NCBI RefSeq assembly: GCF_009901525.1
Contig: NZ_CP019288.1
Location: 2,385,501 to 2,449,500 of the forward strand
Direction: 5' to 3'
DNA: 64,000 bases
Source of the DNA: Kordia antarctica
Lineage (GTDB): Bacteria > Bacteroidota > Bacteroidia > Flavobacteriales > Flavobacteriaceae
In this document: in pieces, positions 17,658-56,504 of the stretch
Numbering within the stretch: the first letter of the stretch is position 1
Layout of the letters: each line of letters starts with the position of its first letter
The notes under the pieces: model-generated
The model's database searches: none
What the model was told of the DNA's origin: nothing
The model's input: the letters and a program-made list of their open reading frames with translations, nothing else
Program-made: the position numbers and the translations under genes

Positions 17658-18026
17658 TTATTTCACAAACTCACCAATATGCCACAAAATCCCTGACGGA
17701 TCGTAGATAAAAAATTCATTTCCCCAATCGTTATAAGTAATTTCTGTGATACGTACGTTTTCATATTTCTGGTCTAGATGTAATTTTTTGATGGCTTCTA
17801 AATGTTGTTTTAAATCATCCACTTCCAAGAAAATCATCGTGTTTTCAATCCAATCTTTTACATATGCATCTTGCAAATAAAAGCCAAAATCGCCCAATTT
17901 AAAATAGGACATATTGTGCAAAACGGAAAGTTCTTCAAAACCCAAATCGCGATAAAAACTTCGAGAAACTTCGAAATTCTTTGCGCCAATAAAAGCTCTA
18001 ATTGATTTTATGTTATCACTTTTCAT
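17658..18026 (-). CDS. VOC family (glyoxalase/bleomycin-resistance-like) protein
   Basis: A 122-residue cytoplasmic protein with the paired beta-alpha-beta-beta-beta modules of the vicinal oxygen chelate fold: RAFIGAKNFEVSRSFYRDLG opens module 1, and MIFLEVDDLKQHLEAIKKL then NEFFIYDPSGILWHIGEF form module 2. The closing pattern DPSG.LWH(I/F)GE is the usual VOC end with a conserved Glu. The substrate is unknown; small VOC proteins range from antibiotic-binding proteins to isomerases. A possible minus-strand -7 box TAGTTTTG lies at 18132-18125, which would give a leader of about 90 bases. Confidence 0.88.
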   Translation of the reverse strand: MKSDNIKSIRAFIGAKNFEVSRSFYRDLGFEELSVLHNMSYFKLGDFGFYLQDAYVKDWIENTMIFLEVDDLKQHLEAIKKLHLDQKYENVRITEITYNDWGNEFFIYDPSGILWHIGEFVK

Positions 18027-18349
18027 AATTTATCCGAGTTTAAGTTCTTCGTTTGTTTGAATCAAAAGAAACTTCATATTTTGATTGTTTTCTAAAAATA
18101 GAAGATACAATAGTTTCCTGTAATCAAAACTACTTTTCGTATTAGTATAAGTACTTCACTATAACATGTTGCGCAGATATATATACTTTCGGGAATATTA
18201 AGATTTACTTTTTTTGTTGTGTTACTATAAGAATTGTAACTACAAATTACAATCCATCTAATCAAGTAATTTTTTATTGAAATTCAATCGATTAGATGGA
18301 TTATGGAGCATTACTTACATAGGAAAACTCCTAAATAAAAGTATGTAGA
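18027..18349. repeat. Gap with a long inverted repeat
   Basis: No gene seen. It contains inverted arms AATCCATCTAATC (18251-18263) and GATTAGATGGATT (18290-18302), 13 bp and perfect, with a smaller hairpin ATTGAA/TTCAAT in the loop. The structure lies 48 bases past the stop of the small minus-strand peptide gene and may end its transcript, although no T-tract follows. Confidence 0.6.
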
Positions 18350-18478
18350 TTACTTTATTGGACAACAGTAAACAGAAGGACAAACACATCTACTCCAATC
18401 AATACCGCCTACAATAGTACTTTGCGCTGATTTCTCTAAAATTTGTGTGCTTTCTAATTTTTTAATGAGTTCTAACAT
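18350..18478 (-). CDS. Double-glycine-leader small peptide, putative RiPP/natural-product precursor
   Basis: A 42-codon gene on the minus strand (ATG 18476-18478, stop 18350-18352). The product starts MLELIKKLESTQILEKSAQS, reaches a double-glycine site at residues 24-25 (TIVGG) and ends with the 17-residue core IDWSRCVCPSVYCCPIK, which carries four Cys (CxC and CC). A charged, Leu/Lys/Glu-rich leader, GG cleavage site and short Cys-rich core are the plan of Bacteroidota GG-leader natural-product precursors cut and exported by C39-peptidase ABC transporters. A near-consensus -7 box (TAGTTTTC, minus strand, 18522-18515) lies about 37 bases before the ATG. No modification enzyme or peptidase transporter is in the window, so it is an orphan here. 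Coding status and RiPP nature are inference. Confidence 0.6.
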   Translation of the reverse strand: MLELIKKLESTQILEKSAQSTIVGGIDWSRCVCPSVYCCPIK

Positions 18479-18727
18479 AAGTTATTTTTTAAAGTTAATA
18501 ATAATTGAATTTAAGAAAACTAGAATAAAAAGTGTTACGGTAAAACCATAATTCTCTCTAAAACAATGATTTCGCATTATTTTATTAAAAGGGAAGTTTC
18601 ACTCAATGAAAATACACGTTCACGCATTGCTCGTTTCAAAACACTTAAAGATAGTATAGTTTTGAAATCTAATCAAACAAAAAATAGATTCCTGCCTGCG
18701 CAGGAATGACAAACTAACAACTCAACT
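18479..18727. repeat. Gap with a palindromic repeat TTCCTGCCTGCGCAGGAA
   Basis: Holds the promoter region of the small peptide gene and a GC-rich palindrome at 18689-18706 (arms TTCCTGC/GCAGGAA). A second copy with changed but still paired bases is at 45669-45685. A 47-codon plus-strand frame (18566-18709) runs into this palindrome and is not called. Confidence 0.6.
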
Positions 18728-19366
18728 ATGAAATCAACTTTACTATTTTACTTATTTTTCAGCCTTTCTATTTGTTGCTTTGCACAGATGAACTCAGTAA
18801 CAGGAACTATTTATGACGAAGATAAAAATATTCTCGCTGATGCGAATGTGATTGTGAAAAACTCCAAAGAAGGCACAATTACAGACAAAAAAGGTCAGTT
18901 CACGCTTGACGTAACTCCAAAAGATACTTTAGAAATTTCTTATCTCGGATTTGAAACGAAGGAAATTGTAGTTGGTGACCAAAAAGAGATTACAATTATT
19001 CTAAAATCTGAATGGGAAAAGTTGGATGCTTCAATTATTGTTGCTGAAGATTATAATAGAACAATAAGATGTGGTTTTAGTTGGAAAGTCATTTATATAG
19101 AAGAGGAATACAATCATGTAATTATAGGTACACTCTTCCCAAATCCTTCTACAAACGGATTATTTCAGCTACAGCTGGATAAAACATATACGAATATTCA
19201 AATTGAAGTTTTCAATATGAACGGACAATTGATCCAAACCTCAACATACACGAAACTTTCAAAAATTCCACAAATTGATTTGTCAACTCAAGCAAAAGGA
19301 GTCTATTTGATTCGCACGATTGTTGATGGAGAATTGTTGGAAACTAAGAAAGCTGTGAAAGCTTAA
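18728..19366 (+). CDS. Secreted CarboxypepD_reg-like protein with type IX sorting domain
   Basis: A 212-residue secreted protein. The signal peptide (about 1-19, ending CCFAQ) is followed by a carboxypeptidase regulatory-like beta sandwich (about 22-95, VTGTIYDEDKNILADANVIV to FETKEIVVGDQKEITIIL), a short linker and a T9SS sorting tail (about 137-212, LFPNPSTNGLFQLQLDK to the end). It has no catalytic or barrel domain, so it is probably a small surface protein or binding module. The CarboxypepD_reg segment resembles the one in the giant A2M protein of this window. Confidence 0.85.
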   Translation: MKSTLLFYLFFSLSICCFAQMNSVTGTIYDEDKNILADANVIVKNSKEGTITDKKGQFTLDVTPKDTLEISYLGFETKEIVVGDQKEITIILKSEWEKLDASIIVAEDYNRTIRCGFSWKVIYIEEEYNHVIIGTLFPNPSTNGLFQLQLDKTYTNIQIEVFNMNGQLIQTSTYTKLSKIPQIDLSTQAKGVYLIRTIVDGELLETKKAVKA

Positions 19367-20452: not shown

Positions 20453-22201
20453 TTATTCTTTGGAAATAGCATCTGCAAATTCTTGCAACTTTTTAATATT
20501 TGGATGTCCGTTTTCTTTTGCAATGGTAATATGATCTTCAAAATTCCAACCAATGGACTTTGCTCCTTTGGCAACTAGTTTATCTAATTCCTTTTCTGCT
20601 TCTTCACGCCATTCTGAATAATGTGTATAACGGTAAAACCAGAGTTCTGCTAATAAGTCTAATTGATCTTCTTTAGTGTATTTAAATGATTTTTCAATGT
20701 ATTCTTTCGCTGTTTTAAAATCTTTCTTTCGTAATATTAATAAGTTACCTAAGTTACCTAAGTTATTTGCATTATTTTCATCTAACGATAAAGCCATATA
20801 ATGATATTTTTCTGCTTTATCATATTTTTTTTGTGTAGTTCCTAAAAATATCGCGTAATTACCCAAAATTACAGAATCATTTTTTTTATATAAAATTGCC
20901 TCTTCGTAATATTTTTCTGCTAATTCATGATTACCTCTAACTTCAGTTAAAAAATTAGCTATGTTACCTAGAATAATTCCACTTTCTGGTGCTAACTCTT
21001 TGACTTTATTATAATACAGTTCAGCTTTGTCATAATCTTTTTTAGAATTTTTTAAAAATATTGCATAATCATTCAATAATTCCACATTATCAGGAAATCT
21101 CTCAATCGCTTCTTTAAATATATCTTCTTTTTTATCAGTATCTTCCTCATAAGCGATCTTTAACAAATATCTCTCAGCACTTGTGAAAATCTCTCTGGTT
21201 TCTTCCGAAATATCTTCCGGCTTTTCTTTTTGAAGTCTTTCTAATAATTCTCTCTTTTTTTCCTTTAAAGTTTCCACACGTTTTTTAGCCGCAATGACAA
21301 ATTGATGGTTGTCAATATCATCTAAATCTTTAAAAATTTTATAGTCCATTGCGAAATTAAAACTGTGCATGAGTTCATCAAATCCTTTTATTTCAACTAT
21401 GAAATCATTGGACGTTAATAACTTGCGTATTTTATCATTCAAATCGTCTTCATTTCGAATACACCAATAGATAGGTTTTCGATCTTTTGCATCTATTTCC
21501 GTTAAATAATCCATAAGACTTCCATCATTTCCACCGTAACCAATCACTAATAAACTAAAGTTTTTTACAATAGGCAATAATGCTTTTCCCCATTCATCTT
21601 TTAACTTCTTGGTTTGTTCCTCATCATTAAAAGGATTTAATAATAAATCTCGATGTACTTTTATAATTGTTGGTCGTTCCGTTTGTGAAGAAATAAACTG
21701 TGCCATAATTTCATGACCTGCTGTAAACGGTTTTGTAGCTGTGTACATTCTGATAGCATCTTCAATGAGATAATCAAAATTAGTAGTGATGACAAAGTTG
21801 TGTTTTTCATCAGCGAGCAATCGGGCAAGAATTACATAACCCAAACCAGGTTCTGCGCTTTCCATGATTCTTTTAAACTTATCATAGCCAACTTGATGAC
21901 AAGATTCGTATCGTTTTTTATATAGATGCGAATAAAACTCACCTACTTTTTTAGCATCAAACTTTATTGCTTTTTCCCAAGTTTTGAGTTCGTCTACTTC
22001 TAAATCATCTTGTAATTCTTGATACCATTCTTCCGATAATTCCCAACCTGTTTGAATTCCTGAGCTTTTAGATGCGCCAGCTCCAATGAGAAAGCAAAAA
22101 CGATTGTCTTCACTTTTGACTCCTTTTATGTCTTTAAAAATACGAACGAGTCGCTTTTGACTAATTTTTTTAGGTTCTTGTAATTCTTTCCTTTTTACCA
22201 T
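20453..22201 (-). CDS. SIR2-like domain protein with C-terminal TPR repeats (putative NADase, defence candidate)
   Basis: A 582-residue cytoplasmic protein. The N-terminal SIR2-like Rossmann domain (about 30-290) shows GAGAS (40-44) for NAD binding, TTNFD (139-143) with the conserved Asn/Asp, H183 in KVHRD and GYGGND (221-226). From about 340 to 550 there are repeated helical hairpins (DKAELYYNKVKELAPES, ELAEKYYEEAILYKKND, DKAEKYHYMALSLDENN) typical of TPRs. SIR2-like effectors in anti-phage systems deplete NAD after a sensor domain is triggered; a TPR sensor would fit. It stands alone with no second defence gene beside it. The NADase role is inferred from family knowledge. Confidence 0.85.
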   Translation of the reverse strand: MVKRKELQEPKKISQKRLVRIFKDIKGVKSEDNRFCFLIGAGASKSSGIQTGWELSEEWYQELQDDLEVDELKTWEKAIKFDAKKVGEFYSHLYKKRYESCHQVGYDKFKRIMESAEPGLGYVILARLLADEKHNFVITTNFDYLIEDAIRMYTATKPFTAGHEIMAQFISSQTERPTIIKVHRDLLLNPFNDEEQTKKLKDEWGKALLPIVKNFSLLVIGYGGNDGSLMDYLTEIDAKDRKPIYWCIRNEDDLNDKIRKLLTSNDFIVEIKGFDELMHSFNFAMDYKIFKDLDDIDNHQFVIAAKKRVETLKEKKRELLERLQKEKPEDISEETREIFTSAERYLLKIAYEEDTDKKEDIFKEAIERFPDNVELLNDYAIFLKNSKKDYDKAELYYNKVKELAPESGIILGNIANFLTEVRGNHELAEKYYEEAILYKKNDSVILGNYAIFLGTTQKKYDKAEKYHYMALSLDENNANNLGNLGNLLILRKKDFKTAKEYIEKSFKYTKEDQLDLLAELWFYRYTHYSEWREEAEKELDKLVAKGAKSIGWNFEDHITIAKENGHPNIKKLQEFADAISKE

Positions 22202-55757: not shown

Positions 55758-56504
55758 TTAAGTCGTTCCTTTATAGGATTCAAACATAGAAAGTACTTTT
55801 TTTCTATTTCGAACAGAAATTAGGATTTCAGCATCGTTACTCATGCGAACAGCTCCGTTAATCGTAACACCTTTCACATGTTTAGCGTTGACCAATACCG
55901 ATCGGTGTACTCTGAAAAAAGAATCATCTTCGATAAAACTTTCAATTCGTTTCAGATTTTTAGCGGAGAGAAATTGATCACCTTGAACAGTGTGAACAAA
56001 CGTGTAACTTCCGGAAGCTTCACAATATAAAATGTCTGAAATTTTTATAGGAACATACTCTTTGTTTATAATGATCGTAAGAACCTGATTTTTGGCTTTG
56101 ATTTGATTTTTAAATGCCTGATACTTTTTTATATCAAAAGCAGAACGCTTCAAAACATACATATCTAGCACTTTTTTTATCTCGTCTTCTTGTATCGGTT
56201 TGTTAAGGTAATAGAACGCAAAATAGTCCATTGCGCGTTCCTTGTAATCTAAAAAACCTGTGGTAAAAATCACCTCAAATGTCATGTTTCCTTTCAAACG
56301 ATCTAATACATCAAAACCACTTCCGTCAAGTAATTCTATGTCCATAAACAAAATATCTGGCGTTTCGGCCTCTATCATCTTTACAGCATCGTCAACGTTT
56401 GTTGCCCAACCAAGAATGGTAATATTTGGATGATTTCGTTTTAAAATAGATTGTAAATATTCCATAGAAGATTTTTCATCTTCAATGATAATTGCGTTAA
56501 TCAT
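55758..56504 (-). CDS. LytTR family two-component response regulator
   Basis: A 248-residue regulator. The receiver domain (about 1-120) has the phospho-acceptor D55 in DILFMDIELLDGSGFD and AIIIEDEKSS for the acidic pocket; the LytTR DNA-binding domain (about 145-245) has ILYCEASGSYTFVHTVQGD and FFRVHRSVLVNAKHVKGV. I start at MINAII (ATG 56502-56504); an upstream extension of 32 residues has a non-receiver composition. No kinase gene is next to it in the window. Confidence 0.92.
   Translation of the reverse strand: MINAIIIEDEKSSMEYLQSILKRNHPNITILGWATNVDDAVKMIEAETPDILFMDIELLDGSGFDVLDRLKGNMTFEVIFTTGFLDYKERAMDYFAFYYLNKPIQEDEIKKVLDMYVLKRSAFDIKKYQAFKNQIKAKNQVLTIIINKEYVPIKISDILYCEASGSYTFVHTVQGDQFLSAKNLKRIESFIEDDSFFRVHRSVLVNAKHVKGVTINGAVRMSNDAEILISVRNRKKVLSMFESYKGTT

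Follow-up and report, generated by a model that had tools for sequence, protein, structure and literature searches.

To what kind of gene does a 42-codon minus-strand frame belong that was annotated as an orphan double-glycine-leader peptide with a four-Cys core, in a 64,000-nucleotide stretch of Kordia antarctica DNA (hereafter the window)? The first-pass annotation took it for a RiPP or bacteriocin-like precursor that acts with enzymes coded elsewhere or as a free secreted peptide. We lean towards the reading that the gene is a member of a dispersed, largely co-regulated family, and that its product would be a secreted disulfide-bonded peptide, likely a bacteriocin-like effector.

The precursor gene and its family

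The frame translates as described, giving MLELIKKLESTQILEKSAQSTIVGGIDWSRCVCPSVYCCPIK, with the 25-residue leader MLELIKKLESTQILEKSAQSTIVGG ending in GG (positions 24-25) and the 17-residue core IDWSRCVCPSVYCCPIK, which contains four Cys (Table 1). Since the open frame is 43 aa long, the start of the precursor gene is hardly ambiguous. A profile built from 32 paralogs of the same genome, from which the precursor itself was excluded, was searched against the 277 ATG-initiated ORFs of 25-150 aa in the window. The precursor was matched with an E-value of 1.5e-11, while the next-best ORF reached 0.27 and the best match among 257 ORFs of the reversed window was 2.0; the best of 2000 residue shuffles scored 12.2 bits, compared with 38.8 bits for the real precursor. 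A chance ORF was thus ruled out by the held-out profile and its controls. Since the leader by itself scored 25.9 bits and the core by itself 3.5 bits, the family membership of the precursor rests on its leader.

Table 1 Positions of the features discussed (window coordinates unless a locus is named)
Feature	Position	Strand	Basis or remark
Precursor gene, stop included	18350..18478	minus	held-out profile, E 1.5e-11
Leader, codons 1-25	18404..18478	minus	family alignment
Core IDWSRCVCPSVYCCPIK	18353..18403	minus	cut expected after Gly25 from the family pattern
Promoter -7 box candidate TAAATTC	18507..18513	minus	family register, +22 to +28 after the palindrome
Palindromic operator candidate TTATGGTTTTACCGTAA	18535..18551	minus	1 mismatch to TTACGGTnnnACCGTAA; 56 nt before ATG
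Inverted repeat, 13-bp arms, possible mRNA 3' hairpin	18251..18302	unassigned	letters and folding
Gene and control region, matches below 20 nt only in the G001 and G005 intergenic regions	18117..18595		boundaries approximate
DUF805b elements	L044: 1185-1220, 1442-1477, 1808-1843	own genome	Rfam

The description of the peptide as an orphan did not hold. When the precursor sequence was used as a query, six other places in its own genome (5.50 Mb in one contig, where the window spans 2385501-2449500) were matched with E-values of 0.003-1.05, and all six encode GG peptides whose tails are rich in Cys. A profile built from eight peptides then gave 37 own-genome matches at E<=10, of which 33, the precursor among them, were kept as the alignment A3 after four rows (three weak, one of another leader type) had been dropped. 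The A3 profile itself found 35 own-genome matches at E<=0.001. The 33 members lie at about 27 places by hand count, with genes up to 5 kb apart merged, and the 11 Kordia genomes hold 11-37 family matches each at E<=0.001, 281 in total.

Homologs with conserved GG and Cys, the test proposed together with the original description, were found. M1, K16, Q19, G24 and one Cys are invariant in the 33 kept members, and G25 and a second Cys are nearly so; the leaders are conserved, and the cores are hypervariable and rich in Cys. A single genome thereby carries many precursors of one leader type with variable cores. The leader of the precursor has I-4 and L-12, and its position -7 is the invariant Gln of the family.

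The precursor matched no Pfam or NCBIfam model, and it has no relatives in the plasmid collection searched. Among the 33 members, weak matches alone were noticed with the models searched: TIGR04149 with 3 of the 33 (best 5.5e-4), the ComC leader model with two (best 0.0083) and NF047798 leader_Chryseo with four (best E 0.095). No solved structure matched the family profile at E<=1, and no paper on the Kordia peptide family or on the C39-like/VKOR fusion described below was noticed among the literature matches listed. The leader type adjoins MKKKNLKSL-like GG peptides at own-genome positions 1271644-1272703, 4893325-4894430 and 783051-783742.

Genomic place and control elements

The neighbour gene at 17658-18026, which we take to belong to a glyoxalase-like family and which gave no match in a Pfam scan, was found in 5 of 10 congeners. 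In all five, its copy lies close to an apparent counterpart of the T9SS-tailed neighbour at 18728, the domain scan having been run on the window's copy alone. None of these five congeners, in which the corresponding interval could be found, carries a family peptide there, and in three of them a different gene of 126 aa occupies the interval. The intergenic length is 701 bases here versus 128 in congener G005 and 171 in congener G001. The stretch of about 480 bases that holds the gene and its control region has only short matches in these two intergenic regions (Table 1), and one short congener flanking segment matches both of its sides.

No ortholog of the precursor gene was seen at the same place among the congeners compared, and the gene has so far been seen in one species. 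The congener leaders most similar to that of the precursor (aligned identity 56% and 51%, in genomes G006 and G008) lie at another place and precede other cores; the codon differences from the precursor leader, counted between these non-orthologous places, were 7 synonymous and 9 nonsynonymous in one case and 5 and 12 in the other. This lineage-specific placing fits a gain of the gene together with its control region in the Kordia antarctica lineage, while loss of the gene in other Kordia lineages may be the alternative. Elsewhere in the window, a short repeat around CTGCCTGCGCAGGAATG (18681-18713) has matches elsewhere in the genome, which make up 33 of the 43 DNA-search matches listed. The minus strand also encodes a SIR2-like and TPR protein of 582 aa at 20453-22201, possibly a defence gene, and a LytTR response regulator at 55758-56504.

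Upstream of the family genes, a control site recurs. The palindrome TTACGGTnnnACCGTAA, with up to three mismatches, lies 51-58 nt ahead of the ATG in 16 of 31 own-genome upstreams (31 of the 33 members), compared with a rate of 0.5% in shuffled upstreams, the palindrome having been derived from the same upstreams, along with k-mers, on which it was counted. The other 15 upstreams have no clear operator. Across the genome, TTACGGnnnnnCCGTAA was found at 40 sites when no more than one mismatch was allowed, versus 15 for the backward pattern, and a GG peptide ORF begins 51-58 nt after the site in 19 of 39 examined, or in 21 with two looser cases. By reading, nine of the 19 have the family leader type and ten the MKKKNLKSL-like type, which was not used in deriving the palindrome; one of the latter peptides follows a palindrome at 4893712. 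Four of the 11 perfect sites precede no GG peptide, three of these lying in similar intergenic elements. These three elements (L193, L194 and L197) each combine a perfect palindrome with a further TTACGG...CCGTAA pair, and do not stand before GG peptides. Two further palindrome matches, each with two mismatches, are present in the window.

In 28 family upstreams that were selected by the palindrome and anchored on it, T+22 (27 of 28), A+23 (26 of 28), T+26 (26 of 28) and T+27 (28 of 28) are conserved, which points to a promoter box at fixed spacing from the palindrome. With this spacing, the palindrome would lie near -43, as expected for an activator beside polymerase. The near-consensus -7 box that had been noted before the precursor is partly borne out by TAAATTC in the family register, but the exact TAnnTTTG was not seen in the 160 nt upstream; TAGTTTTC, which is out of the family register, would fit the box that was meant. 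As a family promoter, the exact TAnnTTTG was rejected, since it occurred in 15 of 151 upstreams versus 22 in one shuffle, and in 0 of 31 in the own genome.

The 13-bp inverted repeat reported downstream is present, with arms at 18251-18263 and 18290-18302. Folding of 18240-18360 on the minus strand gave -30.3 kcal/mol (z -4.70), and no U-run follows the repeat on that strand. A dispersed repeat was considered and dropped, with no other copy among the 43 matches listed (40 of 159 candidates scored).

The intact frame, the four Cys, the palindrome with its single mismatch and the promoter box in register all argue against a decaying or silent family copy that is no longer made or exported. This reading, which we regard as very unlikely, could draw on E3 and S10 in the leader, at positions where K and G prevail in the family, on a core that is among the shortest of the family, and on the lack of an ortholog in the congeners.

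That the genes share a control site speaks for a common cue, as would suit a pheromone-like signalling peptide instead of an antagonist, and the ComC matches of two members point the same way. However, the presence of about 33 hypervariable cores in a single genome and the lineage-specific placing fit a diversified arsenal better, and neither a histidine kinase nor an evident peptide receptor was found among the eight window proteins scanned, six of which are the nearest neighbours. A signalling role therefore appears improbable to us, and an antagonistic one is kept as the preferred reading.

Outside Kordia, the upstreams of family peptides often carry AGACACAAACTGTGAGTGTCTnTAAATGTTCACAG, which is able to form an H-type pseudoknot. 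In 26 sequences selected by GTGTC, 93.3% of the cells pair, compared with at most 54.5% in slid versions, and both-side changes are found in six of the six pairs of helix 2 and in one of the six pairs of helix 1. Of five measures compared with 500 shuffles, three were reached by none, one by 6 and one by 13, the structure having been derived from the same 26 sequences on which it was scored. At E<=0.1, the pseudoknot model gave 64 rows, or 46 distinct places after merging of overlaps. Of the 58 non-Kordia loci, 45 contain such a place; the 40 Kordia sources and the window gave no match. The element lies at about -64 to -20 before family ATGs (L084, L096, L098, L104, L111, L115 and others; further loci are L117, L120, L127 and L145), and Rfam gave no match to it at E<=0.5 in 13 non-Kordia loci.

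In the own genome, Rfam found the known cis-regulatory RNA element DUF805b before three tandem family genes at about 685 kb, two hits exceeding the gathering score and one falling short of it (Table 1), and a similar pattern also precedes peptides in L157 and L153. Two palindrome-bearing own-genome sources (L001 and L028) gave no Rfam hit at E<=0.5. Judged from sequence, both the pseudoknot and the DUF805b-type elements may act as DNA instead of RNA.

Exporters, the C39-like/VKOR/thioredoxin fusion and the core cysteines

As the first-pass annotation had stated, no maturation gene was found in the window: there was no hit for Peptidase_C39 (E<=0.001), the fusion (E<=1e-10) or the exporters (E<=1e-100), and lanthionine and radical-SAM enzymes were judged from a reading of the ORF list. 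The C39-ABC transporters and radical-SAM or LanB-like enzymes that it proposed to look for are present elsewhere in the genome. Three Peptidase_C39 hits were obtained, two of which are full ABC exporters with a C39 domain. One of them, at 3.73 Mb, is accompanied by LanB-like genes and an HlyD protein, and the other, at 2.73 Mb, adjoins a radical-SAM peptide-maturase-like gene. The exporter at 3.73 Mb is found in all 11 Kordia genomes (93-98% in 10 of 10 congeners). Neither exporter adjoins the precursor gene, none of 18 C39-ABC loci has a family peptide within 1.5 kb, and no palindrome with up to three mismatches occurs in the two C39-ABC regions. A link of the family to a C39 ABC exporter may be drawn by pattern only, and any choice between the exporters would be a guess.

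The third hit is a 519-aa fusion at 2785546-2787102, preceded at about 170 bases by a family peptide gene, with C39-like, VKOR and thioredoxin-type domains. In Pfam, VKOR and Peptidase_C39 scored above the cut-off and Thioredoxin_4 just below it, and the PDB sequence matches were VKOR-like and DsbA-like chains. The catalytic columns of the C39-like domain contain no Cys or His in any of the 10 fusions aligned to the two exporters. Six redox Cys (C186, C195, C263, C266, C379 and C382) occur in every one of the 42 fusions compared, and no Cys column before residue 186 is common to 30% or more of them; this alignment covers 42 of 45 loci, the three without a parsed frame having been left out here and restored for the linkage count below. 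Two adjacent hydropathic segments (134-171) lie ahead of the VKOR loop. Enzymes in which VKOR is followed by a thioredoxin-type domain, with Cys pairs, are known to form disulfides. The Kordia fusion has the same domain order and conserved Cys pairs, but differs in its extra N-terminal C39-like domain, which lacks the protease residues, and in being linked to GG peptides.

This linkage was counted in 45 loci sampled from 69 fusion matches. A family peptide (E<=0.01, within about 1.5 kb) was present in 37 of the 45 fusion loci, at one of which (L112) the peptide is itself in the profile, versus 1 of 37 control loci (0/5, 1/14 and 0/18 by set); the remaining eight fusion loci have no family peptide nearby. 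Fifteen site loci that had been picked for lacking a GG peptide (0/15) were excluded from the control sum. Across 299 Flavobacteriaceae genomes, leader and fusion occur together in 32, the leader without the fusion in 5, the fusion without the leader in 8 and neither in 254, a co-occurrence on which the Fisher test treats genomes as independent. The fusion is found in all 11 Kordia genomes (75-86% in 10 of 10 congeners). A second own-genome fusion (L188, 1906834-1908354) and those of L184, L185 and L187 are 27-29% identical to the first and adjoin a similar partner peptide containing GGAKICSGG.

Cys makes up 14% of the cores and 0.2% of the leaders in 153 family peptides from the fetched loci, one of 154 ORFs having been left out for want of a GG by rule. 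The number of Cys is even in 126 of these cores and odd in 27. It is also even in 27 of 33 own-genome cores and in 50 of 63 cores after removal of those 40% or more alike; none of these counts consists of independent draws, and in a few members the GG was assigned by rule.

The association of family and fusion, together with these Cys numbers, speaks against a RiPP in which lanthionine or radical-SAM enzymes encoded in the genome would cross-link Cys with Ser/Thr or with carbon. We consider such a product unlikely, and the precursor itself matches none of the families among the lanthipeptide and radical-SAM precursor models (NF038153, TIGR04149). In its favour are the LanB-like genes beside the C39-ABC exporter and HlyD protein at 3.73 Mb, the radical-SAM gene beside that at 2.73 Mb, the weak TIGR04149 matches of three members and the two Ser of the precursor core IDWSRCVCPSVYCCPIK. 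The palindrome also precedes leaders of the MKKKNLKSL type, and one of the two of these tested matches lant_leader_L1a below the cut-off. For the disulfide reading, which we prefer, the fusion is probably the folding enzyme of the family, its association with the peptides being observed and its reaction presumed. Of the RiPP or bacteriocin-like precursor first proposed, the double-glycine-leader form and the machinery elsewhere in the genome hold, while the orphan status does not, and the enzyme with the strongest link to the family is of a disulfide-forming type, not a cross-linking RiPP enzyme.

Proposed mechanism and comparison with known systems

From these observations we infer how the gene may be regulated and expressed, how its product would be processed and bonded, and what target and activity it might have. 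A putative regulator, its sign of action likewise presumed, would bind TTACGGTnnnACCGTAA just upstream of the promoter and switch the scattered precursor genes together. The common leader would direct the peptide to a C39 peptidase ABC exporter, which would cut after GG and export the core, as the leader pattern and the presence of exporters suggest. In the membrane fusion, the C39-like domain without protease residues probably binds the leader, and the VKOR and thioredoxin domains would oxidise the core Cys, here to two disulfides. The mature 17-mer would be released, most likely as a bacteriocin-like antagonist of neighbours, and the variable core would set its target range, a suggestion that draws on likeness to tested peptides and on hypervariability.

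For Kordia and other Flavobacteriaceae, we tentatively propose, at slightly less than even chances, a 'disulfide analogue of the prochlorosin system', in which the C39-like/VKOR-thioredoxin fusion would read a common leader and install disulfides. Scattered, fast-evolving cores would be tied together by the operator in Kordia or by the pseudoknot RNA in other genera, and each new core would arrive as a one-gene cassette that brings its own control element. If this is true, the 281 matches in 11 Kordia genomes amount to an extensive set of small secreted peptides that seems to have escaped curation, and the one candidate folding enzyme would read their leaders through a disabled protease domain. 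Leader-guided disulfide formation would become testable, the combination of control site, leader and Cys core could serve as a search pattern for such peptides, and many short disulfide-rich peptides would be available to activity screens.

Like the GG peptides of C39 exporters, the precursor has a leader ending in GG with conserved positions, with Gln, not Leu, at -7; Leu-7 is the leader residue named in the LahT150 study (PMC6363468). NF047798 leader_Chryseo, a 'bacteriocin-like protein' model, shows its weak leader likeness in 4 of the 33 members and not in the precursor. A lantibiotic cluster in Kordia algicida is listed in PMC3091789. Prochlorosins (PMC6363468) resemble the Kordia family in that a single genome encodes up to 30 precursors with variable products and one promiscuous enzyme, but they have Nif11-type leaders and lanthionine chemistry by enzymes of the ProcM group. 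For the Kordia family, the disulfides are a prediction and the single enzyme a hypothesis, so that the likeness is one of design only.

The bacteroidetocins, proposed as class IIf (PMC6671954), are the nearest tested analogue. They share with the present system a GG leader, four Cys, a C39-type ABC transporter, a thiol oxidoreductase, the deletion of which attenuates bacteroidetocin activity, and the lack of an obvious immunity gene. With four Cys and predicted disulfides, the precursor compares with a class IIf criterion of two or more disulfide-bonded Cys. However, the bacteroidetocins are encoded (PMC6671954) in a compact four-gene region with a five-TM protein, whereas no C39, fusion or exporter hit lies in the window, and their leader of 15-16 aa and mature peptide of 42-48 aa differ from the 25 aa and 17 aa found here. 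The precursor is not classed as a bacteroidetocin, because the region, the leader length and the mature size differ. Unlike the bacteroidetocins, the Kordia system has dozens of precursor genes scattered over the genome, many of them behind a recurring candidate operator, and includes the C39-like/VKOR/thioredoxin fusion.
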